Shown in pieces: positions 715 through 13,688 of a stretch of DNA of 64,000 bases. The DNA lies in assembly GCF_014132355.1 (NCBI RefSeq), contig NZ_BLZO01000177.1, positions 1-64,000 on the forward strand, read 5' to 3'. The stretch's first letter is position 1; each line of letters starts with the position of its first letter. This DNA comes from Okeania sp. KiyG1 (lineage in GTDB: Bacteria; Cyanobacteriota; Cyanobacteriia; Cyanobacteriales; Microcoleaceae). Made by a program: the position numbers and the translations under genes. A model generated the notes under the pieces. The model ran no database searches and was not told the origin of the DNA. It worked only from the letters and a program-made list of their open reading frames with translations.

Positions 715-1310
715 ATTACTGGTGTCGTAAGCATTCAGCCGTCAGCCATCAGCTATCAGCTATTGCTTTTAGAGCTGATTTATGAACTGAGTTGAAACTC
801 CTTTCTCGCATGGGTTTGCGGAAAATTATGCCTGGCGATCGATAGTGTCGAACCCTTACACTGTAAAGCATTTATCCTCTTAATATTTACTTTATAAATC
901 AGCTCTTAGTTTAGGATCAAAGCAATATTTAACTGTCTTACTACAAAAGTTGCCTCCCTTGCCCTTAAAGTCAGTTGTTAATTTAAACACTGTCCTTAAG
1001 GAGAGAGTCTTGTTGCTGATAGCTGACAGCGAGCTAGCTGAATGCTTACCTGGTGTCTGGATATTCATGGGGCAGAAGTGTCATTTCAGTTATCAGTTAT
1101 CAGTTATTAGTTATTAGTTATTAGTGTACCTTACTTATCTAACAAACTTTATATAGAAAATAGGAATTTGTGTTCAAAGCAATAGCTGATAGCTTACTGC
1201 TGTTTGCGCAGCATTCCGCAGGAAATACTTACAGTTATTCTAAATTCATAGAGCAAATTACTGGAATATGTTTAAATTATAATAGCAGTTAAATTCAGGA
1301 ATTAACATAC
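715..1310. repeat. Repeat-filled intergenic region
   Basis: No gene is seen. It holds AAGCATTCAGC/ATCAGCTAT-type dispersed repeats (about 728-765 and 1018-1060), a family L element (771-906), a short (AGTTATC)n heptamer run near 1085-1120 and a family G repeat at about 1201-1230. The last ~70 bases are AT-rich and are the likely leader of the gene starting at 1311. Confidence 0.6.
771..906. repeat. MITE-like element, family L (copy 1)
   Basis: Terminal inverted repeats AGAGCTGATTTAT and ATAAATCAGCTCT bound a 136-bp segment. A second copy lies at 41493-41636, and a run of about 39 bases (AACCCTTACACTGTAAAGCA onwards) is identical between the two. There is no coding capacity, so it looks like a non-autonomous element. 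Confidence 0.6.
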
Positions 1311-2426
1311 ATGGCCACCAGACTAATTCAACTGGAAGATGGGATTTTCGTTGAAGCTGAAGTTCCAGATAATGAAGCAAAGCCGATTTCTACTAATACT
1401 GTTAAAGATGTTAAATCTAGTTTTGCACAAGTTAAACCTGTATTAGTTAGTATTAGTCGTCCTATTGCTGAAGCTTGGCAAGAAATTAATAAAGATATGG
1501 AAATTGAACAAGCTGAGGTGGAAGTAGGTTTTAATTTTGAGGGGGAAGGTAATATTTATATTACTAAAGGAAAAGCAGGTGCTAATTTAAAAGTGAAGTT
1601 AGTATTGAAACCAATTGCACCAAAACCATTTGATGTAATAACGGTAAACAGCAAAGGTGAAGAAATTAATCGTAGTTCCCATGAAGCAGTATTTTTTACT
1701 GAAGATTTGGGTAAAGGTATAACGTTGGAAATGGTTTCTATTCCTGGAGGTAGTTTTGTTATGGGTTCCCCAGAAAATCAAGTAGAAACAGATAATTCTG
1801 AAACTCCTCAACATGAAGTTACTTTGCAACCTTTTTATATGAGTAAATACCCTATTACTCAAGACCAATATCAAGCTATTATGGGTGAAAACCCCTCTCA
1901 CTTTAAAGGAGGAAAGCGCCCTGTAGAAACTGTAACATGGCACAACGCTATAAAATTTTGTCAAAAGTTATCCAAAAAAATGGGGAAAACTTACAAACTA
2001 CCTAGTGAGAGTCAATGGGAATATGCTTGTCGCGCTGGTACAACCACACCGTTTTATTTTGGGGAAACTATAACGACTGATTTAGTTAACTATAATGGCA
2101 ACTATACCTATGGCGATGCTCCTAAAGGTGAATATCGAGGAGAGACAACTGATGTGGGAAGTTTTCCTCCTAATGCTTTTGGTTTATATGATATGCACGG
2201 GAATGTGTGGGAGTGGTGTCAGGATATTAGACACGATACTTATGAAGGTGCGCCTAATGATGGTAGTGCTTGGGAGACTGGAGGAGATAGTAAGATACGA
2301 ATGCTTCGTGGTGGGTATTGGGAGGATGAACCTTGGAATTGTCGGAGTGCTTTCCGTCTCTGGGGGGATGCCGACTTCTGCAATAATAACAGAGGTTTCC
2401 GTGTGGTTTATTTGCCTAGTTTATAG
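1311..2426 (+). CDS. Trypco1-like domain fused to FGE-sulfatase/C-type-lectin-fold domain
   Basis: 371 aa. Residues 1-102 (LIQLEDGIFVEAEVPD ... EVEVGFNFEGEGNIYI ... GANLKVKLVL) resemble the CU044_2847/Trypco1 domain (trypsin-co-occurring domain 1), known from bacterial conflict and signalling proteins. Residues 130-368 are an FGE-sulfatase (SUMF1) domain: MVSIPGGSFVMGSPE, PVETVTWHNAIKFC, LPSESQWEYACRAG, GLYDMHGNVWEWC, RMLRGGYW, NCRSAFR, NRGFRVV. Real formylglycine-generating enzymes have two active-site cysteines near the C-terminus. Only one is visible here (NCRSAFR), so enzymatic activity is doubtful and a ligand-binding C-type-lectin role is more likely. The last ~37 residues have the layout of a DGR variable region. 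It stands alone, with tandem repeats directly after the stop. Function is inferred, not known. Confidence 0.8.
   Translation: MATRLIQLEDGIFVEAEVPDNEAKPISTNTVKDVKSSFAQVKPVLVSISRPIAEAWQEINKDMEIEQAEVEVGFNFEGEGNIYITKGKAGANLKVKLVLKPIAPKPFDVITVNSKGEEINRSSHEAVFFTEDLGKGITLEMVSIPGGSFVMGSPENQVETDNSETPQHEVTLQPFYMSKYPITQDQYQAIMGENPSHFKGGKRPVETVTWHNAIKFCQKLSKKMGKTYKLPSESQWEYACRAGTTTPFYFGETITTDLVNYNGNYTYGDAPKGEYRGETTDVGSFPPNAFGLYDMHGNVWEWCQDIRHDTYEGAPNDGSAWETGGDSKIRMLRGGYWEDEPWNCRSAFRLWGDADFCNNNRGFRVVYLPSL
2301..2412 (+). other. Candidate DGR variable region within the C-type-lectin domain
   Basis: Between the framework motifs LRGG and GFRVV, positions that are often Asn in template repeats of cyanobacterial DGRs are here Y, E, D, E, W, F, L, W, G, D, D, F and C. 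Many use codons ending in C or T (TAT, GAT, TTC, CTC, GAC, TTC, TGC), as expected if AAY codons had been mutated at adenines. Three AAY codons (AATAATAAC) remain just before the invariant GFRVV end. No reverse transcriptase or template repeat is present in the window, so this is a candidate only. Confidence 0.35.
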
Positions 2427-3427
<1,001 letters not shown>

Positions 3428-4279
3428 TTAAAGAAGAATTTGATGTTTCAACCACCCATACCAATCATTTAAACCTTCCCCACTTGTGGCAGAAACCTGG
3501 AAAATCTTAATATTAGGATTTACCTGTTTTGCATATTCAATACAACGATTAACGTCAAATTGTACATAAGGCAATAAATCAATTTTAGTCAGAATCATTA
3601 CCTGACTTTCTCGAAACATATAGGGATATTTTATTGGTTTATCTTCCCCTTCAGTAACTGATAGAATTGCGACTTTAGAATTTTCACCCAAATCAAATAA
3701 AGCTGGGCAAACTAAGTTTCCCACATTTTCAATCATTAAAACTGAATTTAAAGGAGGGTTTAATTCTGTATAACCTTTCTCTACCATTCCCGCTTCCAAG
3801 TGACAGCCTTTGCCAGTATTAATTTGCACTACTTTACAACCAGTTTGGCGAATTTTTTCTGCATCATTAATAGTTTCTTGGTCGCCTTCTATGACGCTAA
3901 AATTCAATTCAGATTTTAAATCATTAATCGTCCGAGCTAATAAAGTAGTTTTGCCAGAACCAGGAGAACTAACTAAATTTAATGCCAGAATATTTCGACC
4001 TTTAAACCAACCTCGGTTTTGAGCAGCTATTAGGTCATTTTTCTGTAAAATTTTCTGTTCTAAACTAATAGTATTTCCGTGCATTTTGGCATGAAATTCT
4101 GCTGTTTCCTGATGATTATGTTCAGGAGTATGATTATCAGAATGAGTATGAGTAATAATAGTTCCATCTGGGAGAGTATGAGTATGGGAATGATGCTTAT
4201 CTACTGTCATTTTTTCTCCTGTTTGAGAATTAGTAATAGTAATTTCATTATTACCGGAACAACCGCAAGTTACACACAT
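3428..4279 (-). CDS. hypB: Hydrogenase nickel incorporation GTPase HypB
   Basis: 283 aa. HypB is the SIMIBI-class GTPase that, with HypA, loads nickel into the large subunit of [NiFe]-hydrogenases. The N-terminus MCVTCGCSG is the high-affinity metal motif (CxxCGC). Residues ~28-58 are a histidine-rich stretch (HHSHTHT, THTHSDNH, HNH), a nickel store. The P-loop SSPGSGKTTLL follows near residue 105, then EGDQET, the dimer-interface metal region TGKGCHLEA, LMIENVGNLVCPA, and the guanine-specificity motif LTKIDLLP. Length is normal. A GGAGAAAG sequence lies upstream of the ATG. It is the last hyp gene in transcription order, separated from hypA by a pentapeptide gene and a pseudogene. Confidence 0.97.
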   Translation of the reverse strand: MCVTCGCSGNNEITITNSQTGEKMTVDKHHSHTHTLPDGTIITHTHSDNHTPEHNHQETAEFHAKMHGNTISLEQKILQKNDLIAAQNRGWFKGRNILALNLVSSPGSGKTTLLARTINDLKSELNFSVIEGDQETINDAEKIRQTGCKVVQINTGKGCHLEAGMVEKGYTELNPPLNSVLMIENVGNLVCPALFDLGENSKVAILSVTEGEDKPIKYPYMFRESQVMILTKIDLLPYVQFDVNRCIEYAKQVNPNIKIFQVSATSGEGLNDWYGWLKHQILL

Positions 4280-4740
4280 GATTTTTCTTTCTCCATTTCT
4301 TTGATTTTTTGTTTTTGAGATTTGATTATAAGTAGGTCATTTCAGTTAGCCTCCTGTGGTCGGAGCTACGCTAGCCTCTTTCAGAGGAACTACGTTATCA
4401 GTTAGCCTCCTCCGGAGGAACTGCGTTAACAGTTATCAGTACTTCCGACTTAACTCGGAGGCTTGAAATACTGAGTTATACCAAATCCGGGTTAAAAAAA
4501 AGGTGTATATATATAGTTAACACCTTTTATTCTATGCGGATTTGATATTAAACATTTTTTTCATCCCCTTAAAAGGTGGAGGCTTTGGACTTCATTTTTT
4601 GGTAAGTGGGAAAATTTACAAGTACGTCATTGCGACTGTAACGAAGTGGAAGGAAGCAATCTCAAGGGTTGATACTGCACCAACATTTGGTTATATAGTG
4701 AAGTTTATTCGCGTCTACCTACTTAATTAAATTAAAAAAA
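4280..4740. repeat. Intergenic region with dispersed repeats
   Basis: The segment 4340-4470 consists of GTCATTTCAGTTA and GTTAGCCTCC-type repeat pieces. The segment 4478-4550 is a short inverted repeat (ATACCAAATCCGG ... GCGGATTTGATAT) around GGTGT/ACACC arms, distantly like family B ends. No gene was seen in 4560-4740. Confidence 0.45.
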
Positions 4741-4985
4741 TTAATCTCTATTTTCAGTCAATTTTGCTAATCTTTGAATTTCCTCTAAAGACAAATCTAA
4801 ATATTCAGCAATAATCTTTAAAGTTAAACCTAAACGAATCATCTTAGATACAGATTTTAAGTGGGCTTTTTCTTTGCCTTCAGCTTCGCCTTTAGCTTCA
4901 CCTTTAGCTTCGTTATTTGTCAGTTATTTGAGCAAAATGTTCCATTAACATTCGGTGGATAAACATGTACCCACCACCTACTTTT
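4741..4985 (-). pseudogene. Remnant of an Rpn/PD-(D/E)XK transposase-like nuclease gene (C-terminus)
   Basis: Reading leftwards from 4919, one frame gives NNEAKGEAKGEAEGKEKA, then LKSVSKMIRLGLTLKIIAEY, then LDLSLEEIQRLAKLTENRD and a stop at 4741. This charged EAKGEAEGKEKA linker plus short helical tail is typical of Rpn-family (recombination-promoting nuclease/putative transposase) proteins in cyanobacteria. It is preceded directly by a stop. A neighbouring frame (about 4922-4985) gives FIHRMLMEHFAQITDK, apparently the preceding part shifted by one base. The nuclease core is missing, so this is a 3' relic. Confidence 0.55.
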
Positions 4986-4993
4986 TGGATCGA

Positions 4994-7183
4994 CTATGAA
5001 GCTTCTGCCTCAATCCAACCTTTGACTATTTCAATGGGAATTCCAATTGGACCAAATAATACTTTCAATGCTTCGATTCCTCCTTCTTTGAAAGCGTTAA
5101 CTAATCTAGCTTTCAATGTAGGATTTTGCTGAATTTCTTGTTGTAAAGCACTCTGTTTTTCAATTTTTGTTGCATTTGGAGAATTTTGTTCGAGTTGTTG
5201 TAAAAGCTGTTGAATTTCTGCTGCTGCATCTGCTAAGTTTTGCTTTTGTTCGGCAGGATAATTGTTAATTATTCCGCCTACATGGTTGGCATAAGTTGGT
5301 CCTCCTACTTGGTTACTTTGAGATTTATTAGTATTGACAAATCCTCCAGAAAAATTTCCACCGCTAAAGTCATTGTTAGTGGTATCAGCCATAACAGTGT
5401 CTCCTTTATTTTGATAATTTTCTATTTCTATATGATAACTAGGACGCCGTAGCAATATCTGTACGGTATTTTCTACAAATGTTTGTATTGTATTCTCTAA
5501 AGTAGAAATTCTATTATCTTGTTCCGCTAAAAGTTTCTTTTGTGCCTCAGCTAAAGCTTTTATTTCGTTATACATCTGGAAATATTCATCATGTAACGGA
5601 GAAAGGTCAGCCCCAAGAGCAGTAGCTAGACGCAGTAGAAGATTATCTCGTCCCCTTTTCTCCATCGCTACTATTTCTAACTCTGCTCCTGGATGATTTT
5701 CAGCTAACCGCTTAAGTGCAATAGCAATAGCGCGAGGGTCAACCTCCGGGTCGTGGTAAAGGTCGAGGGTATCAACTATGGGTTTAATAAAGTCGGCAAA
5801 GTCTCCATCCTTAAATTCTTTCTTCCGGTCATCTGGTTTGCGACGAGGTTCATCATCTTCTTTTGTGGGTAAGTGCATGAAGACATAACGACATCTCACG
5901 CCATCTAATTTTGTATGTCTAGTGATACCCCAATCTTCTATAGTAGCTCCGGTGAGTATTGCTCCTGTTAGGTTTGCTTCATCTAATTGGGTTTGTACTA
6001 ATTTGGCTCTTGATAAGTCAGCATCCTGGAGGTTGGCTTTACTCAGATCGGCGCCTTTAAAACTAGCATTAGCTAAGTTTGCACCTTGTAAATTAACACC
6101 CCGTAAGTTTTGGTAGTCAAAGTTTTGGTTTTCCCCGTCTCCTTTAATTAGTAATTGCCGTACTCGCAGATTTTTAAGATAAGAGCCTTCAATACGGGAT
6201 AACTCAATTTTTTTAACACCATGCAGGTAAACTCTTACAAGTTTAGCTTCATTAAAATTTGTATTTTTAAGTATTGCTTCCTCGAAATTTGTATCTTCTA
6301 GGTTAGCCTCCTCAAATTTAGTACCAAATAAACAAGCTATAAAAATGATTACAGACCGAGTTGCTGACCAGGTTTCATCTTCCTTTAAAGCTTTCCAGCC
6401 AGCATTTCCTCCCATTACAGACGCTATAATATTAACTGTTATACCTATCGTTCTAAAACCTACCCTGTCTATAAATTCAGATTTTGCTGCGACGACTCCT
6501 CCCAAGACAGCAAATGCTACAGCTATTAAGCCTGATAAATCACAAGAGATAGAGATTACTCCAGCCACTGCCAAAGTTAGCCCCACAGCATAAGCAGAAA
6601 TAAAAGCAGCTACCAGAGTAGTTGCAACAGACACACCTATAAGTTGATTGCTGTTAACAAAAATGAAGTTGAGTAGTGTTGCAATTACAATCGTAGCTAA
6701 AGATGTAGCTGCAGCAACAGCTCCGTAGGTGGATAAAGTTACGGAAATAGCTCCATACAAAGACTGGAATACGTTGCGAGAATCAAACCTTAGACTTTTA
6801 CGAATAGTAGCAACAAAGAAAATTGATAAAACAACCAGGATAACTAATCCAGGAACTAAAATTAAAATTTGAGTATTTTTAGGGATTAAAATACTTGTTG
6901 TATAGAGACAAGTTATAGTTGTAATAAATCCTAGTAGTGCGGAGAGAAACCATGTCACAACAAGCAATAAAGTTATCCAATAATTTTGCAATCCAGTTTT
7001 TTTAAGCCTACAAAATTTTGCACCTTTAAGATTAGCTTTAGTAAAATCTGCTCCTCTAATATCCGCTCCACTAAAATCTGCCTCCGAAAGGTTTTGTCCT
7101 CTGAGAGATTCACCCCTGAGTTTTACCCCTTGGAAGTTTCTTTCACCTTCTCTATATTGCCTCAGTAATTCACTAGCTTTCAT
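4994..7183 (-). CDS. Pentapeptide-repeat membrane protein with conserved cyanobacterial C-terminal tail
   Basis: 729 aa. Residues ~15-58 are A(D/N)LXX pentapeptides (GVKLRGESLRGQNLSEADF). Residues ~65-285 hold about six or seven hydrophobic segments. A second pentapeptide block follows (~290-420: EEANLEDTNFEEAILKNTNF, then GVNLQGANLANASFKGADLS), which would form a right-handed quadrilateral beta helix. After a PRRKPDDRKK linker comes a helical region with a coiled coil (AQKKLLAEQDNRISTLENTI), a Gly/Asn-rich segment (NNDFSGGNFSGGFVNTN) and a helical tail ending GPIGIPIEIVKGWIEAEAS. I recognise that tail from other cyanobacterial multidomain proteins but cannot assign a function. It sits between hypA and hypB on the same strand as an insertion into the maturation cluster. 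Membrane location is inferred from hydrophobicity. Confidence 0.85.
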   Translation of the reverse strand: MKASELLRQYREGERNFQGVKLRGESLRGQNLSEADFSGADIRGADFTKANLKGAKFCRLKKTGLQNYWITLLLVVTWFLSALLGFITTITCLYTTSILIPKNTQILILVPGLVILVVLSIFFVATIRKSLRFDSRNVFQSLYGAISVTLSTYGAVAAATSLATIVIATLLNFIFVNSNQLIGVSVATTLVAAFISAYAVGLTLAVAGVISISCDLSGLIAVAFAVLGGVVAAKSEFIDRVGFRTIGITVNIIASVMGGNAGWKALKEDETWSATRSVIIFIACLFGTKFEEANLEDTNFEEAILKNTNFNEAKLVRVYLHGVKKIELSRIEGSYLKNLRVRQLLIKGDGENQNFDYQNLRGVNLQGANLANASFKGADLSKANLQDADLSRAKLVQTQLDEANLTGAILTGATIEDWGITRHTKLDGVRCRYVFMHLPTKEDDEPRRKPDDRKKEFKDGDFADFIKPIVDTLDLYHDPEVDPRAIAIALKRLAENHPGAELEIVAMEKRGRDNLLLRLATALGADLSPLHDEYFQMYNEIKALAEAQKKLLAEQDNRISTLENTIQTFVENTVQILLRRPSYHIEIENYQNKGDTVMADTTNNDFSGGNFSGGFVNTNKSQSNQVGGPTYANHVGGIINNYPAEQKQNLADAAAEIQQLLQQLEQNSPNATKIEKQSALQQEIQQNPTLKARLVNAFKEGGIEALKVLFGPIGIPIEIVKGWIEAEAS

Positions 7184-7250
7184 TACATAATATTTGACAG
7201 TTATTTTTCCGAGCTTCCAAATATAATATTACTTACTTTTTCCCTTGATA

Positions 7251-7595
7251 TTAAACACATAATTCTTCTACCTCCATTTCCTTAATTTTAAGTTCTTGAC
7301 CTTGAATAATATCTATTTCCACACTGTTACAAACATGACAAACACCGAATGGTTGCTCTAGGGAAAATTCTGCTCCACATTGACGACATTTTCCTAAACC
7401 GGGAATTTTAATAATTTCTAATTTTGCACCTTCTAAAACAGTACCTTTACTACAAACGTCAAAACAAAATTCAATCGCATCAGACATAATGGCAGAAAGT
7501 TCGCCTATTTCTAAGGTGACTCGTTTGACTGATTTATCCTTAGCATTTTCAGCAACTATGGCAACAATATTTTGAGTAATTCCTAATTCGTGCAT
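7251..7595 (-). CDS. hypA: Hydrogenase nickel/zinc chaperone HypA
   Basis: 114 aa, the normal family length. HypA binds nickel through the N-terminal MHEL motif (His2) and zinc through two CxxC pairs, here CRQCG and CHVC at about residues 73-92. It delivers nickel to hydrogenase precursors together with HypB. The sequence starts MHELGITQNIV and has the GELSAIM and FCFDVCSKGT segments expected. The stop is about 70 bases upstream of the pentapeptide gene on the same strand. I see no strong Shine-Dalgarno. Confidence 0.96.
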   Translation of the reverse strand: MHELGITQNIVAIVAENAKDKSVKRVTLEIGELSAIMSDAIEFCFDVCSKGTVLEGAKLEIIKIPGLGKCRQCGAEFSLEQPFGVCHVCNSVEIDIIQGQELKIKEMEVEELCV

Positions 7596-7773
7596 ATTTA
7601 CAAAATTTTTCCAGTTTTTCAGGTAATTTTTTAGCTAAAAGTTAGAAGATACGGAGAGAACTTTCAGCATCAAAAATTTAGTTTGAGACTATCTTATCTT
7701 GACCGATCAAAGAACTATTTTCTCTCTCCTAAAAAAATGTCAGTAGTAGGCGATCGCCCACCAGATTTTTTAA

Positions 7774-8592
7774 CTACAAAACTTCATCAGGGTTAATACC
7801 TCTTTCCCTGAGAAGTTCTGCTAGTCGGTCTGCTCGTTGTTTTTCTTGTTCTGCTCGTTGTTTTTCCTGTTCTGCTCGTTGTTTTTCCTGTTCAGCACGT
7901 TGTTTCTCCTGTTCAGTTCGCTGTTTCTCCTGTTCAGCTCGTTCATCTCCAGTTAACAGAATATTCCCCGAATCATCACACCAGCGCAACCAATCATATT
8001 CTTTTCCTTCAAAAATACCATGCCAAATTGTTAAACCCAATCCCACTTGAGACAAATAGAAATTTCCTAGCTCTACATAACTATTACCTCGTAATTCATA
8101 TACTCGTAAAATAGTTTCTCCAAGTTGTTTAAGTGGGTCAAAAACTACATAATAACCAACCGCTGCAAAAGCATAATCTTGTAATTTACTACCCAACTCA
8201 TTACCGATTTTATTAGAGACAATTTCGATAGCTACTTCTGGAGGTTTGCCAAAATACCAAACAAAATAAGAACGATTCTGTTTTTGACTCCAATATTCTG
8301 GTACTTGGACTCGTAAACTGAGGAGAACGTCTGGTACGAGTGGTGGTATTTTATTGCCGTAAAAAAGCCCGACATTCGCAGTTGCTAAAAATGGTAATTC
8401 TGTTGAAAAAGAACTGTATAAAGTAGTAGTTAATAGTCGTTGTTGTTTCTCAGTAATTAAATTATCCACAGGAGTATCATCCTCAGTAATAACATCACTA
8501 ATATCTGGTTCTACAAATTCAAAATCTTCTGGTTGATTTTTGAAACTTTTGGGGGATGATTCAATATTTGTTTGTGTTGGTAATGTAGACAT
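7774..8592 (-). CDS. Uma2-family endonuclease-like protein with heptad-repeat tail
   Basis: 272 aa. The Uma2/DUF820 core (residues ~35-200) has LVPDVLLSL, PEVAIEIVS, KLQDYA and YYVVFDPL, matching the PD-(D/E)XK-like layout, and ends LRWCDDSGNILLTG. The C-terminus is a coiled coil of near-identical EQEKQRA heptads encoded by 21-nt tandem repeats (about 7835-7945), followed by LAELLRERGINPDEVL. Such genes occur in dozens of copies in filamentous cyanobacteria and their role is unknown. An AAGGAAAAAAATT sequence precedes the ATG. It separates hypE from hypA. Tandem heptads can change number by slippage without breaking the frame. Confidence 0.85.
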   Translation of the reverse strand: MSTLPTQTNIESSPKSFKNQPEDFEFVEPDISDVITEDDTPVDNLITEKQQRLLTTTLYSSFSTELPFLATANVGLFYGNKIPPLVPDVLLSLRVQVPEYWSQKQNRSYFVWYFGKPPEVAIEIVSNKIGNELGSKLQDYAFAAVGYYVVFDPLKQLGETILRVYELRGNSYVELGNFYLSQVGLGLTIWHGIFEGKEYDWLRWCDDSGNILLTGDERAEQEKQRTEQEKQRAEQEKQRAEQEKQRAEQEKQRADRLAELLRERGINPDEVL

Positions 8593-8682
8593 AATTTTTT
8601 TCCTTATTTGTGATTAAATCAAAAGAGAAAATTCTAATCAATTAGATTCTTTTCTACTGCAAAAATTTTCAGGTTTTACAGA

Positions 8683-8985
8683 CTACCACAAAGCATCAAC
8701 TTCATCAGATGTATAAATCTCTTCAGTTGTTAATTCCACAAAATCTTGTAAACGACGATTTAAAAAAGTTCTAGCAACTTTAATTATTTCTGCTTCTGGA
8801 TAATTAGAATGAACCCAAATATTAACTTAAAACGAATTTATTCCCCCTGACTGGAGCAAGAACTTAACTAGATGATACTTACCGGAAAATCCTGGACGTT
8901 CTTGATACTTATTAATTTCTATAATCTCAATTTTAGCATCAAAAAAGTTTTCATATTCTTTAAATATTCAGGTTGTGAACTTCAA
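8683..8985 (-). pseudogene. Broken hypothetical gene in two frames
   Basis: Leftwards, one frame reads DAKIEIIEINKYQERPGFSG, then KYHLVKF and soon a stop. A second frame then reads NIWVHSNYPEAEIIKVARTF, LNRRLQDFVELTTEEIYTSD, EVDALW and a stop at 8683. Together they look like the two halves of one small protein separated by a short insertion (about 8826-8860). I do not recognise the family. The codon pattern looks protein-like, and no start is evident. Confidence 0.45.
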
Positions 8986-9079
8986 CCATTAATATAGACT
9001 TGATGTTAACAGAAAACTTGTCTTCTCTAAAAATGGCAAATTTTCCTAATTTCAAGCCTCCTTATTGCAGAGGTACTAA

Positions 9080-9380
9080 TAGACATCTCCAATAATAAAA
9101 AATCGGCGTTGGTAAAGCGCGTGTATGATATTAATCTTAATTATTTAGGAGTCAGGAGTCAGGATGAAAGAAAAAAGAAGAAAGAGTAGTAGAGGGAGAA
9201 AGTTTTTTGTTTACGCTCTTATCCGGATAAGATATCATACCTTTTTTCACCAACGCCAAAAAATCAAATCAATTATCCCACATAAATTATCAATTCTTTC
9301 CCCCTACTCCCTTTTTCCCCTCCTGGGAGGGGTTCGGGGTGGGTCCCTACTCCCTACTCCCTCTTTTCTGAAGATGTCTA
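9080..9380. repeat. MITE-like element, family A (long copy)
   Basis: TAGACATCTCC at the left and GATGTCTA at the right delimit about 300 bp. The copy is larger than its relatives (2562-2676, 12327-12441, 15080-15203, 37970-38065) because the interior has gained GGAGTCA repeats, a CTTATCCGGATAAG segment resembling family B and CCCTACT repeats. No convincing coding sequence. Confidence 0.55.
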
Positions 9381-9436
9381 ATAGTCGTTGAATTTTAGGA
9401 GGGGTTGCTCATCCCCTTTTCGTTCCGGAATAGTTT

Positions 9437-10525
9437 TTAACAAATTCTCGGAAGTTGGTCTCCTACTAACATATCCACAATACGCTCGGTGCCGAAGGTA
9501 GTTTGCAACAACAAAATTCCTGGAGGAGAAGCAATAACTTCCCCCACAATAGCAGCATCAATACCCGCAGGATGAGATTTCATTGCTGCCAAAACAGTTT
9601 CCGCTTTTTCTCCCGGAACCACCGTCACTAACTTACCCTCATTGGCAAAATATAAAGGGTCGAGACCGAGAATTTCACAGACTCCCTGCACCTCCTCCCG
9701 CACTGGTAGGGAAGATTCAAAAAGTCGTATCCCTACTTCCGAACTCATGGCAAATTCATTTAATACTGTTGCTACACCCCCACGGGTAGCATCTCGCATT
9801 GCCCTAACTTCCGGACAAACATCCAGAATAGTATCAACCAAACCATTCAAAGGTTGAGTATCGCTTTTAAGTTCCGTTTCTAAATCTAGATATCCACGGG
9901 CAACGGTAATAGCTGCTCCATGGTCGCCTACATAACCATTTACAATAACGGCATCCCCTGGTTGAAGATTTTGGGCAGAAATAGAAACACCAGAACGAAT
10001 TACACCAACCCCCGCAGTATTGATAAATAATTTATCTGCAACACCTCGGTGAACAACTTTTGTGTCTCCAGTGACAATTTTAACTCCGGCGACATCTGCT
10101 GCAGTTTTCATACTTTTTGCTATTTGTCGGAGGGAGTCAACAGGGAAACCTTCTTCAATAATCATTCCGCAGGAGAGATATAAAGGTTTTGCTCCACTCA
10201 TCGCTATATCGTTAACAGTCCCGTTGACTGCAAGTTCGCCAATATTGCCTCCAGGAAAAAAGATGGGGTCAATTACATAGGAGTCGGTGGTAAAAGCAAG
10301 TCTGTCTCCTTGAGCGGTGAGAGTTGCTAGGTCAAATGTTGCTTGGTCTTCGAGTTGGGAGAGGGTGGGGTTGTCGAAGTTGCGGACAAAAATATCTTCT
10401 ATGAGGTCGCGCATTGCTTTACCACCGCTACCGTGGGCGAGGGTAACGTTGGTGTCGCGCACTTTTGTCGGGCGACGTCGCGCTTGTTCGATTTTTTTAA
10501 ATAAAGGATTTTGGATGGGTGTCAT
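9437..10525 (-). CDS. hypE: Hydrogenase expression/formation protein HypE
   Basis: 362 aa, normal length. HypE dehydrates the thiocarboxamide made by HypF on its own C-terminal cysteine to a thiocyanate and passes the cyanide to iron on HypC-HypD. The chain ends in PRIC, the required C-terminal Cys. The PurM/AIRS fold is clear: LAHGSGGKAMRDLI, FTTDSYVIDPIFFPGG, GTVNDIAMSGAKPLYLSCG, IVTGDTKVVHRG, RDATRGGVATVLNE. The start ATG directly abuts a heptamer repeat array (10526-10590), and no Shine-Dalgarno is visible, so initiation may be altered. Confidence 0.97.
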   Translation of the reverse strand: MTPIQNPLFKKIEQARRRPTKVRDTNVTLAHGSGGKAMRDLIEDIFVRNFDNPTLSQLEDQATFDLATLTAQGDRLAFTTDSYVIDPIFFPGGNIGELAVNGTVNDIAMSGAKPLYLSCGMIIEEGFPVDSLRQIAKSMKTAADVAGVKIVTGDTKVVHRGVADKLFINTAGVGVIRSGVSISAQNLQPGDAVIVNGYVGDHGAAITVARGYLDLETELKSDTQPLNGLVDTILDVCPEVRAMRDATRGGVATVLNEFAMSSEVGIRLFESSLPVREEVQGVCEILGLDPLYFANEGKLVTVVPGEKAETVLAAMKSHPAGIDAAIVGEVIASPPGILLLQTTFGTERIVDMLVGDQLPRIC

Positions 10526-10590
10526 TTCAGTTATCAGTTATCAGTTATCAGTTATCAGTTATCAGTTATCAGTTATCAGTTATTAGTTAT
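10526..10590. repeat. Short tandem heptamer repeat (AGTTATC)n abutting the hypE start
   Basis: About eight copies of the 7-mer AGTTATC, degenerating to AGTTATT, lie immediately upstream of the hypE start codon. Heptamer STRRs are a known feature of filamentous cyanobacteria. The same junction GTCATTTCAGTTATCAG also occurs near 1078, so the repeat unit itself carries the bases that form the hypE ATG. Confidence 0.85.
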
Positions 10591-10772
10591 TAGCTAAATT
10601 AAATTATGTAGACATAATTTTTTTTAATTACCTTTTCTTTTGCGAGTTTAATACCCTACCATTAACGATAGTGCTTAAAAATGTTTGGGGTTATAAGACA
10701 TGAATGTGGCGTGTCGAAGACTATCGATAAGAATTTTCCCTTCTGCCTTCTGCCTTCTGCTTCCTGCCTTCT

Positions 10773-11237
10773 TCAATGAATTTCCAGGCGACATAATCTC
10801 ACCTTTTCTATTATCTTGGCTCCCATTTTTTCGTAAAAATTAATGCCTTGAGAATTATTAATATTCACAGTCCAATCAATTCTACCGCAACCTGTTTCTT
10901 CAGCTATTTGATATAGACGAGTCATTAAAGCTTTACCAATTTTTTGACCTCGGTATTCTTCTTTTAAATACAAATCATCTAGCCAAATACCAGGTTTAGC
11001 TAAAAATGTAGAATAAATTCGATGATAACTAGCAAAACCTACAGTTTTACCCCCTACTTCTGCTAATAAAATAGAAGTAAGAGGAGTTGTACCGAATAAA
11101 TCGTTATTTAGTTGTTCGGTTGTTGATTTGAGAGATTCGGGACAGCCGTCAAATTTTGCTTTTAGATAGAGTAATTCCATAATTATTTTTATGTCACTGG
11201 GAACTGCTTCTCTGATTATTATTTCTGTATGAAGCAT
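10773..11237 (-). CDS. GNAT-family N-acetyltransferase
   Basis: 154 aa. Single GNAT domain: IIREAVPSDIKIIMELLYLK at the start, WLDDLYLKEEYRG and the acetyl-CoA pyrophosphate motif RGQKIGKAL in the middle, then INFYEKMGAKII near the end. The overall pattern resembles diamine (spermidine/spermine) acetyltransferases, but the substrate cannot be told. It lies between the tautomerase and hypE on the same strand, with repeats on both sides, and has no obvious link to hydrogenase maturation. Confidence 0.85.
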   Translation of the reverse strand: MLHTEIIIREAVPSDIKIIMELLYLKAKFDGCPESLKSTTEQLNNDLFGTTPLTSILLAEVGGKTVGFASYHRIYSTFLAKPGIWLDDLYLKEEYRGQKIGKALMTRLYQIAEETGCGRIDWTVNINNSQGINFYEKMGAKIIEKVRLCRLEIH

Positions 11238-12044
11238 AATTTTTAGATTGCTATTTATTTCTAAATAATTAGAATTATACCAAATTTAAAAAAGGATGTT
11301 ACAAATACACTGGCTAGTAAATAATTAATAATTTACCGAAAAATTGTGGTTTAAAGCCTCCCCTTTTAAGGGGATAATAAAGAAAAATTTTCATTATTAG
11401 TCAATCCTCTTCTTTTCAAGGAGAGGTAATTATTAATTATTAATTATTCATTATTAATTGTTGAATGCGCCACCTACCACCTACCACCTAACACCTAGAA
11501 AGTTATTTGTAGCAAAAATTTATCAATTTGGTATTATATAGCAATTCCCAAAAAGCGTGAGGTACAAAATTTTAGGTTTGAGGGAACACCGGATCTAGGA
11601 ACAGGAAACAGGGAATAAAAAGATAAAAAGATAACTTTACCTCACGTTCTTGGGAAACGCTATACCAGTCCCTATTACTATTAGGATATTCTCGCTTCTC
11701 TCAAATTTAGTTTTTGCTGCAAATTTAGGGAAAAATGGAAATTCGCCCCTACTAATTTTTGACTTTAGCTATAACTGCTTACGTAAGCATTCAGCAGTCA
11801 GCTATCAGCTATCAGCTATTAACTTATTATCTTAGAAGGAGAATTCAAAATGATGTTTATGCAGCATTCACTAGGAAAGAAAAAGGTAACAAGCTAACTT
11901 TACTATATTACATTACGCTCAAAAGCTGAATGCTGTTTGCGGAGCATGACAAACGGAAATGCTAATAGCTGTTTGCGCAGCATTCCGCAGGAAATGCTTA
12001 CCTGCTTACTTAATGATAGCTACTGTCAATTTTTACCAGCAAAA
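11238..12044. repeat. Intergenic region with several repeat families
   Basis: A family F element at about 11337-11463 begins after TTAC with CGAAAAATT and a TTTAAAGCC/CCCCTTTTAAGGGG hairpin. It ends in AATTATT heptamers. An inverted-repeat element at about 11537-11664 starts TATAGCAATTCCC and ends GGGAAACGCTATA, with a relative at 35994-36096. AAGCATTCAGC/CAGCTATC repeats and two family G copies follow (about 11930-11955 and 11969-12000). No gene seen. Confidence 0.55.
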
Positions 12045-12269
12045 TCAACTATTATTTTCTACTTTTTCTGCATGACGACCGGGATGTTTATCAATATGAA
12101 GTTGACCGCCAACTGCCCAATTTTCTCGACTAAATTCGTCGATATGAACTGTTACCCATTCTGGTTTTGTTCCTAAAGTAGAAACAACAGTATCAGTCAC
12201 AGCTTTTGCTAGTTTGCGTTTTAATTCAACCGAATGACCATCAGCAATTTGAATAGTTATAAATGGCAT
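12045..12269 (-). CDS. 4-oxalocrotonate tautomerase family protein
   Basis: 74 aa. It starts MPFITIQIADGHS, so removal of Met exposes the N-terminal Pro used as general base by 4-OT tautomerases. The rest (LAKAVTDTVVSTLGTKPEWV, HIDEFSRENWAVGG) matches the family, and the length fits the small homohexameric type. AGGAG lies 7-8 bases upstream of the ATG. It sits between hypD and hypE. From memory, a small tautomerase gene is also associated with the hyp cluster of Nostoc PCC 7120. No role in hydrogenase maturation is established, and the true substrate is unknown. Confidence 0.88.
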   Translation of the reverse strand: MPFITIQIADGHSVELKRKLAKAVTDTVVSTLGTKPEWVTVHIDEFSRENWAVGGQLHIDKHPGRHAEKVENNS

Positions 12270-12326
12270 GGTTTTTTACTCCTATTTTACTAATACTAAT
12301 ATATATAGAACCATTATTGAATCTAT

Positions 12327-12441
12327 TAGACATCTCCTCCAAAAGAGGGAGTAGGGACGTTGTATGCAACGTCCGTACAGGGAAATAATTGATAATTTAT
12401 GTGCGGTAATTGATTTTATTTTTGATTATTGGAGATGTCTA
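12327..12441. repeat. MITE-like element, family A
   Basis: TAGACATCTCC ... GGAGATGTCTA inverted ends bound 115 bp. The interior has a near-palindrome GTAGGGACGTTGTATGC and its complement, then AATAATTGATAATTT, which is shared with the copies at 2562, 15080 and 37970. The element appears to be flanked by or to end in TA. Confidence 0.65.
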
Positions 12442-12524
12442 TTTGATATTATAAAATTAAATACTTTATCTTCTTCCTTCTTCCCTCTTCCTTCTTCCTT
12501 CTTCCTTCTTATCCTTATTTGATA

Positions 12525-13688
12525 TTAAATACTCAATACCTTATCTTCTTCCCTCTTCCTTTTTCCTTCTTCCTTCTTAAACAACCTTCCATATTTATAA
12601 TAAGCAGCACAAGCACCTTCAGAGGAAACCATACAAGTACCGATCGGATTTTCTGGAGTACAAGCAGTACCAAATACTTTACATTGCCAGGGTTTCAAAA
12701 CACCTTTGAGAATTTCCCCACATTGACAAGCTTTAGCATCAGCAACTTTTTTATTCGGCACACAAAACTTAATTTCCGCATCAAAACAAGCATAAGCATC
12801 AGTAATTTTTAACCCAGACTCAGGAATATCTCCCAAACCTCGCCACTCAAACTTATCCCGAACTTCAAATATTTTGCCCATTGCTTCCAGCGCTACCTTA
12901 TTACCACCTTCCTTAACCACGCGACTATATTGGTTTTCCACCTCACAACGACCTTCTAGCATTTGCTGTAACAACATCCAGATAGACTGCAAAATATCTA
13001 GAGGTTCAAATCCTGATACGACCAAAGGTTTCTGATATTTTTCAGAAATTACCCGATATGGTTGAGTACCAATAACCATACTCACATGACCAGGCCCGAC
13101 AAAACCTTGTAATTCTAAATCTGGGTTACTCAGTAATGCTTCTAAAGCAGGTACAACCAAAACATGATTACTAAAAACGCTAAAGTTGTTGATGCCTTCC
13201 GCTTCTGCTTGCAAAATAGTTAATGCTGCACTGGGAGCAGTAGTTTCAAAACCTAAACCAAAGAAAACCACCTCTTTGTCTGGATTTTCCTTAGCTATTT
13301 TCAAACTATCCAGGGGCGAATAAACCATCCGAATATCTGCACCTTGAGCTTTTGCCTGCAACAAACTTTTTTGAGAACCAGGCACCCGCATCGCATCGCC
13401 GAAAGTAGTAAAAATAACGTTAGGTTTTTCCGCCAGAGCGATCGCATCATCTAATCTACCCCGTGGCATTACACAAACTGGACATCCAGGGCCATGTATT
13501 AGTTCAATATTATTAGGTAAAACCTCCTCAATGCCATATTTGAAAATAGAGTGAGTGTGACCGCCACAAACTTCCATTATTTTGAGTGGGCGATCGGTGG
13601 TGTATCCTAATTTTTGGCTGAGTTCATCAATTCCTTTAACTAAACCTTGTGCTTTGTGGGGGTCGCGAAATTCTTTAATGTATTTCAT
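12525..13688 (-). CDS. hypD: Hydrogenase formation protein HypD
   Basis: 387 aa from the chosen start. HypD is the [4Fe-4S] scaffold which, with HypC, carries Fe(CN)2CO before transfer to the hydrogenase large subunit. Motifs: MEVCGGHTH, HGPGCPVCVMPRG, GFETTAPSAA, VSGFEPLD, then the cluster-binding cysteines in ACQCGEILKG, QCKVFGTACTPENPIGTCMV and SSEGACAAYY. An upstream ATG at 13757 would add 23 residues encoded by IS sequence. The ATG at 13688 has AGGAG close upstream and the typical MKYIKEFRD start. A lysine/glutamate-rich tail (EEGKRKREEDK) runs into repeats. An IS end lies about 15 bases upstream, so the native link to hypC is broken. Confidence 0.97.
   Translation of the reverse strand: MKYIKEFRDPHKAQGLVKGIDELSQKLGYTTDRPLKIMEVCGGHTHSIFKYGIEEVLPNNIELIHGPGCPVCVMPRGRLDDAIALAEKPNVIFTTFGDAMRVPGSQKSLLQAKAQGADIRMVYSPLDSLKIAKENPDKEVVFFGLGFETTAPSAALTILQAEAEGINNFSVFSNHVLVVPALEALLSNPDLELQGFVGPGHVSMVIGTQPYRVISEKYQKPLVVSGFEPLDILQSIWMLLQQMLEGRCEVENQYSRVVKEGGNKVALEAMGKIFEVRDKFEWRGLGDIPESGLKITDAYACFDAEIKFCVPNKKVADAKACQCGEILKGVLKPWQCKVFGTACTPENPIGTCMVSSEGACAAYYKYGRLFKKEEGKRKREEDKVLSI

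Follow-up and report, generated by a model that had tools for sequence, protein, structure and literature searches.

The Trypco1 domain owes its name to its co-occurrence with trypsin-like peptidases in vWA-MoxR systems, and the FGE domain of these systems (there called FGS) is related to the FGE domains of DGR targets, as stated in the available part of PMC7159879. In multicellular bacteria, Trypco1 genes adjoin DGR targets, which have been proposed to be antigen sensors (PMC10907252, accessible sections). For remote DGR targets, the accessible text of PMC7517822 applies a 50% identity rule and also reports that a paralog from Nostoc with no reverse transcriptase (RT) nearby retains traces of homology to a template, so that relict DGR targets as such are already known.

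We have analyzed a window of 64,000 nucleotides of Okeania sp. KiyG1 (contig NZ_BLZO01000177.1, here C177) from an assembly of 10.98 Mb that is 92% complete. Its forward strand carries an open reading frame (1311..2426) for a protein of 371 amino acids in which a Trypco1 domain is fused to an FGE domain. Full-length orthologs are present in all six genomes of our genus sample, i.e., the window's own genome (G000) and five sisters (G001 to G005). To our knowledge, what Trypco1 does at the molecular level has not been established.

Domain architecture and surroundings of the fusion gene

The original prediction of a Trypco1 N-terminus followed by an FGE/C-type-lectin C-terminus is borne out by Pfam matches above cut-off for both domains, which lie on the forward strand like all features described for this gene. 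Trypco1 (PF19493) covers residues 7-98 (1329..1604; 41.1 bits against a cut-off of 24.6, E 2.8e-10), with NCBIfam NF041216 also over its cut-off, and FGE-sulfatase (PF03781) covers residues 140-366 (1728..2408; 183.4 bits against 23.3, E 8.1e-54). The predicted framework LRGG-W-NCRSA-R-GFRVV is present as well. Residues 331-366 (2301..2408), referred to as the tail, are the equivalent of a DGR variable region: they form the 3′ end of the C-type-lectin domain, in a position and with a framework like those of the Treponema DGR variable protein 2y3c and of recent DGR targets of the genus. Besides 2y3c, the solved relatives of the FGE domain by sequence include PvdO (5hha), which ranks on top (3e-38), followed by structures of formylglycine-generating enzymes. 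None of the PADLOC families matched the window protein.

Two active-site cysteines have a catalytic role in formylglycine-generating enzymes. The claim that one of them is missing is correct for the first cysteine, which is absent from the window protein in either alignment, while the state of the second depends on how it is aligned: phmmer sets C344 against a tyrosine and the second cysteine against a gap, whereas counting from the GG motif puts C344 at its spacing. Judged from these alignments, the window protein would not carry the cysteine pair of a formylglycine-generating enzyme, and we agree with the earlier view that the lectin-type domain is probably non-catalytic and that the protein is connected to conflict systems.

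Within C177 we found no match to RVT_1, to a second FGE domain or to a second Trypco1 domain, and a scan for motif patterns (not a profile search) in window frames of at least 90 amino acids gave no trypsin (His or Ser), RT or Walker-A motif, in agreement with the prediction that the window holds no RT. Beside the fusion gene, the window has no gene that we recognized as encoding a protease, VMAP or AAA. Its neighbors are Uma2-family and pentapeptide-repeat open reading frames as well as genes that we take to be hypB and hypA, and each ortholog in the genus lies within ca. 4 kb of what is presumably hypA or hypB. In sister G001, an AAA gene follows ca. 1 kb downstream of the ortholog. Short direct-repeat runs of GGAGTCA-type and CCCCTACT-type are located just 3′ of the fusion gene (approximately 2437-2485 and 2815-2870).

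The window protein thus resembles the VMAP (vWA-MoxR) ternary systems in having a Trypco1 domain above the Pfam cut-off but differs from them in the fusion of this domain to FGE and in the lack of any recognized protease, VMAP or AAA gene at its side. Elsewhere in the same genome, a locus on contig C39 (L102, G000:C39:54000-68500, 6473-12720) encodes Trypco1, a trypsin-VMAP protein, an AAA ATPase (weak MoxR match) and FGE in a row, arranged as in a ternary conflict system.

Relation to the trypsin-FGE gene pair and rarity of the fusion

Sister genomes contain a pair of genes in which the same domains are encoded separately. In G003 and G004, a Trypco1 gene of 107 amino acids overlaps by 8 bases with a gene of 476-478 amino acids for a protein with Trypsin_2 and FGE domains (in L219 of G003 and at L220:11671-13101 of G004, which has another trypsin-FGE gene without such an overlap at L220:4359-5789). 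The second gene of the same pair is interrupted in G002, a contig end truncates the pair in G005, and remnants of it are left in G001. We did not see it in the window's own assembly, where Trypco1 (C55) and trypsin-FGE (C85) are encoded apart. In local alignments, the window gene, together with the 33 bases that precede its start codon (1278..1310), matches the Trypco1 gene of G003 through 1612; from 1628 onward it matches the part of the G003 trypsin-FGE gene that follows the trypsin domain, with the joint between both homologies at 1613..1627. The fusion and the sister pair have in common the Trypco1 part, the flank 5′ of it and the linker that comes after the trypsin domain in the pair; the pair differs by its Trypsin_2 domain and by divergent tails. 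The trypsin-FGE protein of G003, which matches the PADLOC LmuA model (2.5e-11), is identical to the Trypco1-overlapped copy of L220 at 77% of the backbone and 39% of the tail and to the other L220 copy at 91% and 52%, respectively, though the compared genes are possibly paralogs.

In a phylogenetic tree, the five fusion rows form one clade with a support of 100/99 (the G003 protein being identical to that of G004), while the tree singles out no FGE protein, trypsin-FGE proteins included, as the nearest neighbor of this clade. The FGE part of the fusion reaches at best 74-75% identity to trypsin-FGE proteins; with tandem-FGE proteins, to which it aligns over part of its length, the identity goes up to 76%. 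Trypco1 had 119 matches in 63 of 386 cyanobacterial genomes (with one member of the genus among them), all in frames of no more than 195 amino acids except for the window's frame of 377. Within the order, residues 1-140 were matched in 18 of 291 genomes, and the fusion occurred only in the two genus members of that sample. By these counts, Trypco1-FGE is a rare architecture, which among the sampled genomes is limited to the genus. Three further loci with promising coverage (L107, L125 and L183) were rejected as additional fusions because their translations have other N-termini when inspected by eye. A frame of 322 amino acids on the genome's own contig C144 with 53% identity to residues 73-140 was dismissed as well, given that it has no PF19493 match and an N-terminus resembling the trypsin-FGE linker. 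Limited literature searches found neither a report of a Trypco1-FGE fusion nor a paper that joins DGRs and Okeania. What is new here is the fusion itself.

The tail compared with DGR templates and across the genus

The window's own genome has 36 RVT_1 matches, and our DGR motif scan of 29 loci covered 33 of these 36 places (C153-C155, with scores equal to that of C152, were left out); its group II motif was too strict and matched one RT only. A single DGR-type RT was found, encoded on C43 and split by a DDE transposase, though a second one is possible in an assembly that is 92% complete. The C43 locus (L021, G000:C43:48000-66000, 6600-10961) comprises an FGE variable protein, Avd (PF22296), the two-piece RT with a DDE_Tnp_1 open reading frame in between, and a template; of the 15 differences between this template and the variable region, 14 are at adenines. 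With nearly all differences at adenines, this DGR appears to have been active recently despite its split RT. Another locus on C11 (L022, G000:C11:52000-66000, 1853-6812) has kept a variable protein and Avd, with no RT seen beside them, and shares its neighborhood, including a gene that we take to be menD, with contig C2 of G002. In the DGR of G002 (L257, G002:C2:233000-247373, 4555-9630), the RT appears intact, and the genes for Avd and RT are flanked on either side by a template. Two further targets of G002 on contigs C24 and C250 agree at 97-98% of non-adenine sites with its template T1. Only G000 and G002 among the six genomes encode an RT more than 32% identical to that of C43, and the weaker matches in the sisters carry a group II-type QG..SP motif.

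The original prediction regarded the tail as hypervariable on the grounds that its diverse positions are mostly encoded by codons differing from AAY only at adenines. Every codon ending in C or T qualifies for this description, and such codons account for 25/36 of the tail vs. 179/330 of the rest of the gene (Fisher p 0.11). Measured against the sole DGR template found in the window's own genome, 3 of 12 AAY codons can be reached by adenine-only change and the other 9 cannot. The gene is 65% identical to this template (81/124 aligned bases), with mismatches at 25/88 non-adenine sites (28%) and at 18/36 adenines (p 0.037), an adenine bias that fits remote DGR ancestry or simply ligand-contact positions. 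The genome search proposed earlier did turn up a DGR, and its C43 locus includes a template. However, the transposase splits the RT of this locus, and the gene contradicts the template at these non-adenine sites, on which ground we rejected the fusion as a target of the C43 template.

We also compared 65 VR-like stretches, three of which are the templates themselves, with the three templates; the set does not include every FGE gene of the sisters, some of its rows rest on short alignments, and its search pattern misses CRST tails, which leaves the G003 and G004 orthologs outside those tables. Non-adenine mismatches to a template are as low as 1-3% in four clear recent targets, of which G000 has one and G002 three (two of the latter on contigs other than that of the RT). 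A middle class with ca. 8-13% non-adenine mismatches and a strong adenine bias, e.g., L025 on contig C171 of the window's own genome (20/30 adenines and 10/82 others), may derive from templates that are older or different. The window gene, with its 25/88 non-adenine mismatches to the best of the three templates, and its orthologs, with 24/88 to 27/99 (26/101 for those of G003 and G004), lie near the diverged end of the list. In four of the six orthologs the template alignment passes the stop codon; it stops there in the window gene and in G005. A DNA-similarity search of the own genome and the five sisters for a template matching the tail gave the orthologs and otherwise weak matches only, which speaks against a hidden template in these six genomes. 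Compared with DGR targets as described in the accessible sections of PMC10907252, the window protein shares the C-terminal FGE/C-type-lectin framework and the 65% identity to a template of its genome but differs by its 28% non-adenine mismatch, by the lack of a matching template and by a tail that is fixed across species. In the genomes searched, the tail is not a current DGR target.

This fixation is apparent from the orthologs. The five sister proteins, all full-length, are 92-95% identical to the window protein, and those of G003 and G004 are identical to each other, so that the six orthologs represent five distinct proteins. Tail identity is likewise 92-95% in each of the five sister comparisons, on a par with the rest of the protein. 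Over 15 pairs (Nei-Gojobori), dN/dS is 0.192 for the whole gene, 0.266 for Trypco1, 0.157 for the core and 0.162 for the tail, which suggests that purifying selection acts on both halves of the fusion. Amino acid changes within residues 331-366 are confined to positions 331, 342, 347, 355 and 358, and the invariant tail residues include E338, D339, E340, F348, L350, W351, D353, F356 and C357. The comparison of this locus among sisters therefore gave only ordinary synonymous-biased variation in place of adenine-specific changes, and the prediction of a hypervariable tail is not supported in these six species. With a dS of 0.155, close to the 0.165 of the core, the tail has the same age as the core and no sign of recent overwriting, ruling out recent homogenization by gene conversion or homing.

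As a control, the variable protein beside the presumed menD gene was compared between G000 and G002, with an identity of 89% in the backbone and 62% in the tail. The trypsin-FGE proteins of C85 and G005:C219, which are possibly paralogs, are 91% identical in the core and 59% in the tail. Tails that are 88-100% alike between species also occur in around seven further FGE paralog groups, with many of the paralogs encoded in frames that have a kinase motif. Fixed tails are therefore common among FGE paralogs of the genus, and fixation does not mark a special role for the fusion. Long tandem-FGE proteins (L262, L263, L264, L198, L208, L233, L251 and L252) also contain many variable-region-like tails that are near-identical across species and represent fixed lectin-type repeats.

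Competing explanations and what the fusion may mean

On balance, we think that the gene probably encodes a sensor-adaptor of fixed specificity that would work with, or restrain, proteases encoded elsewhere. The tail, the equivalent of the binding face, is nearly identical in six related species, which argues for a fixed sensor and not for one that is still diversifying. The gene unites Trypco1, which elsewhere stands alone, with an FGE lectin-type domain of the DGR-variable-region kind and lacks the protease domain located between them in the sister pairs. It presumably arose once, when a Trypco1 + trypsin-FGE pair lost its protease domain. The FGE domain would then recognize one constant ligand, and Trypco1 would bring in, position or restrain trypsin-like proteases made elsewhere in the cell, with the trypsin-FGE protein of C85 and the trypsin-VMAP protein of C39 as candidate partners. 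That Trypco1 is joined to a sensor domain hints at joint action of the two, and we tentatively favor recruitment or positioning of the protease over its blocking. A decoy or brake, i.e., a protease-less Trypco1-FGE protein that competes with the intact Trypco1 + trypsin-FGE pair and dampens it, would account for the protease being exactly the part that is missing, for the retention of the fusion in sisters that have the pair, and for purifying selection on both halves; we nonetheless consider this rather unlikely, considering that no such pair was seen in the assembly to which the window belongs.

Diversification in trans as an active or recently active remote DGR target is exceedingly improbable. 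The tail is homologous to DGR variable regions, its template mismatches are more frequent at adenines, the genus has a DGR with targets on other contigs, and the 65% identity passes the 50% rule for remote targets in the available text of PMC7517822, but clear recent targets differ from a template at 1-3% of non-adenine sites vs. 28% here, the tail is conserved in six species, the six genomes yielded no template for it, and the genome's own RT is interrupted. An ordinary enzyme of the formylglycine-generating or PvdO-like kind with an accessory domain would explain why PvdO and FGE structures are the closest solved relatives, yet it is very unlikely given that the protein's 173.3 bits are far below the PvdO equivalog cut-off of 500 bits and that at least one active-site cysteine is unmatched.

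Beyond the fixed sensor-adaptor that we prefer, it is conceivable, though doubtful, that the fusion captured a binding surface which a DGR had sampled in the past and that this surface then became fixed. By losing the protease that separated Trypco1 from a diversified lectin, the pair would have given rise to a constant, germline-encoded receptor-adaptor under genus-wide selection, i.e., an innate receptor derived from an adaptive one. If this were true, the fusion would point directly to Trypco1 as the element that couples sensor and protease. More generally, a natural fusion of Trypco1 to a sensor domain that the same conflict systems contain is a testable clue that this domain links sensor and protease. 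Calls of remote DGR targets based on loose identity, such as the 50% in the accessible text of PMC7517822, can take in sensors that are fixed throughout a genus. As around seven other FGE paralog groups behave alike, truly hypervariable proteins may be fewer than counts suggest.
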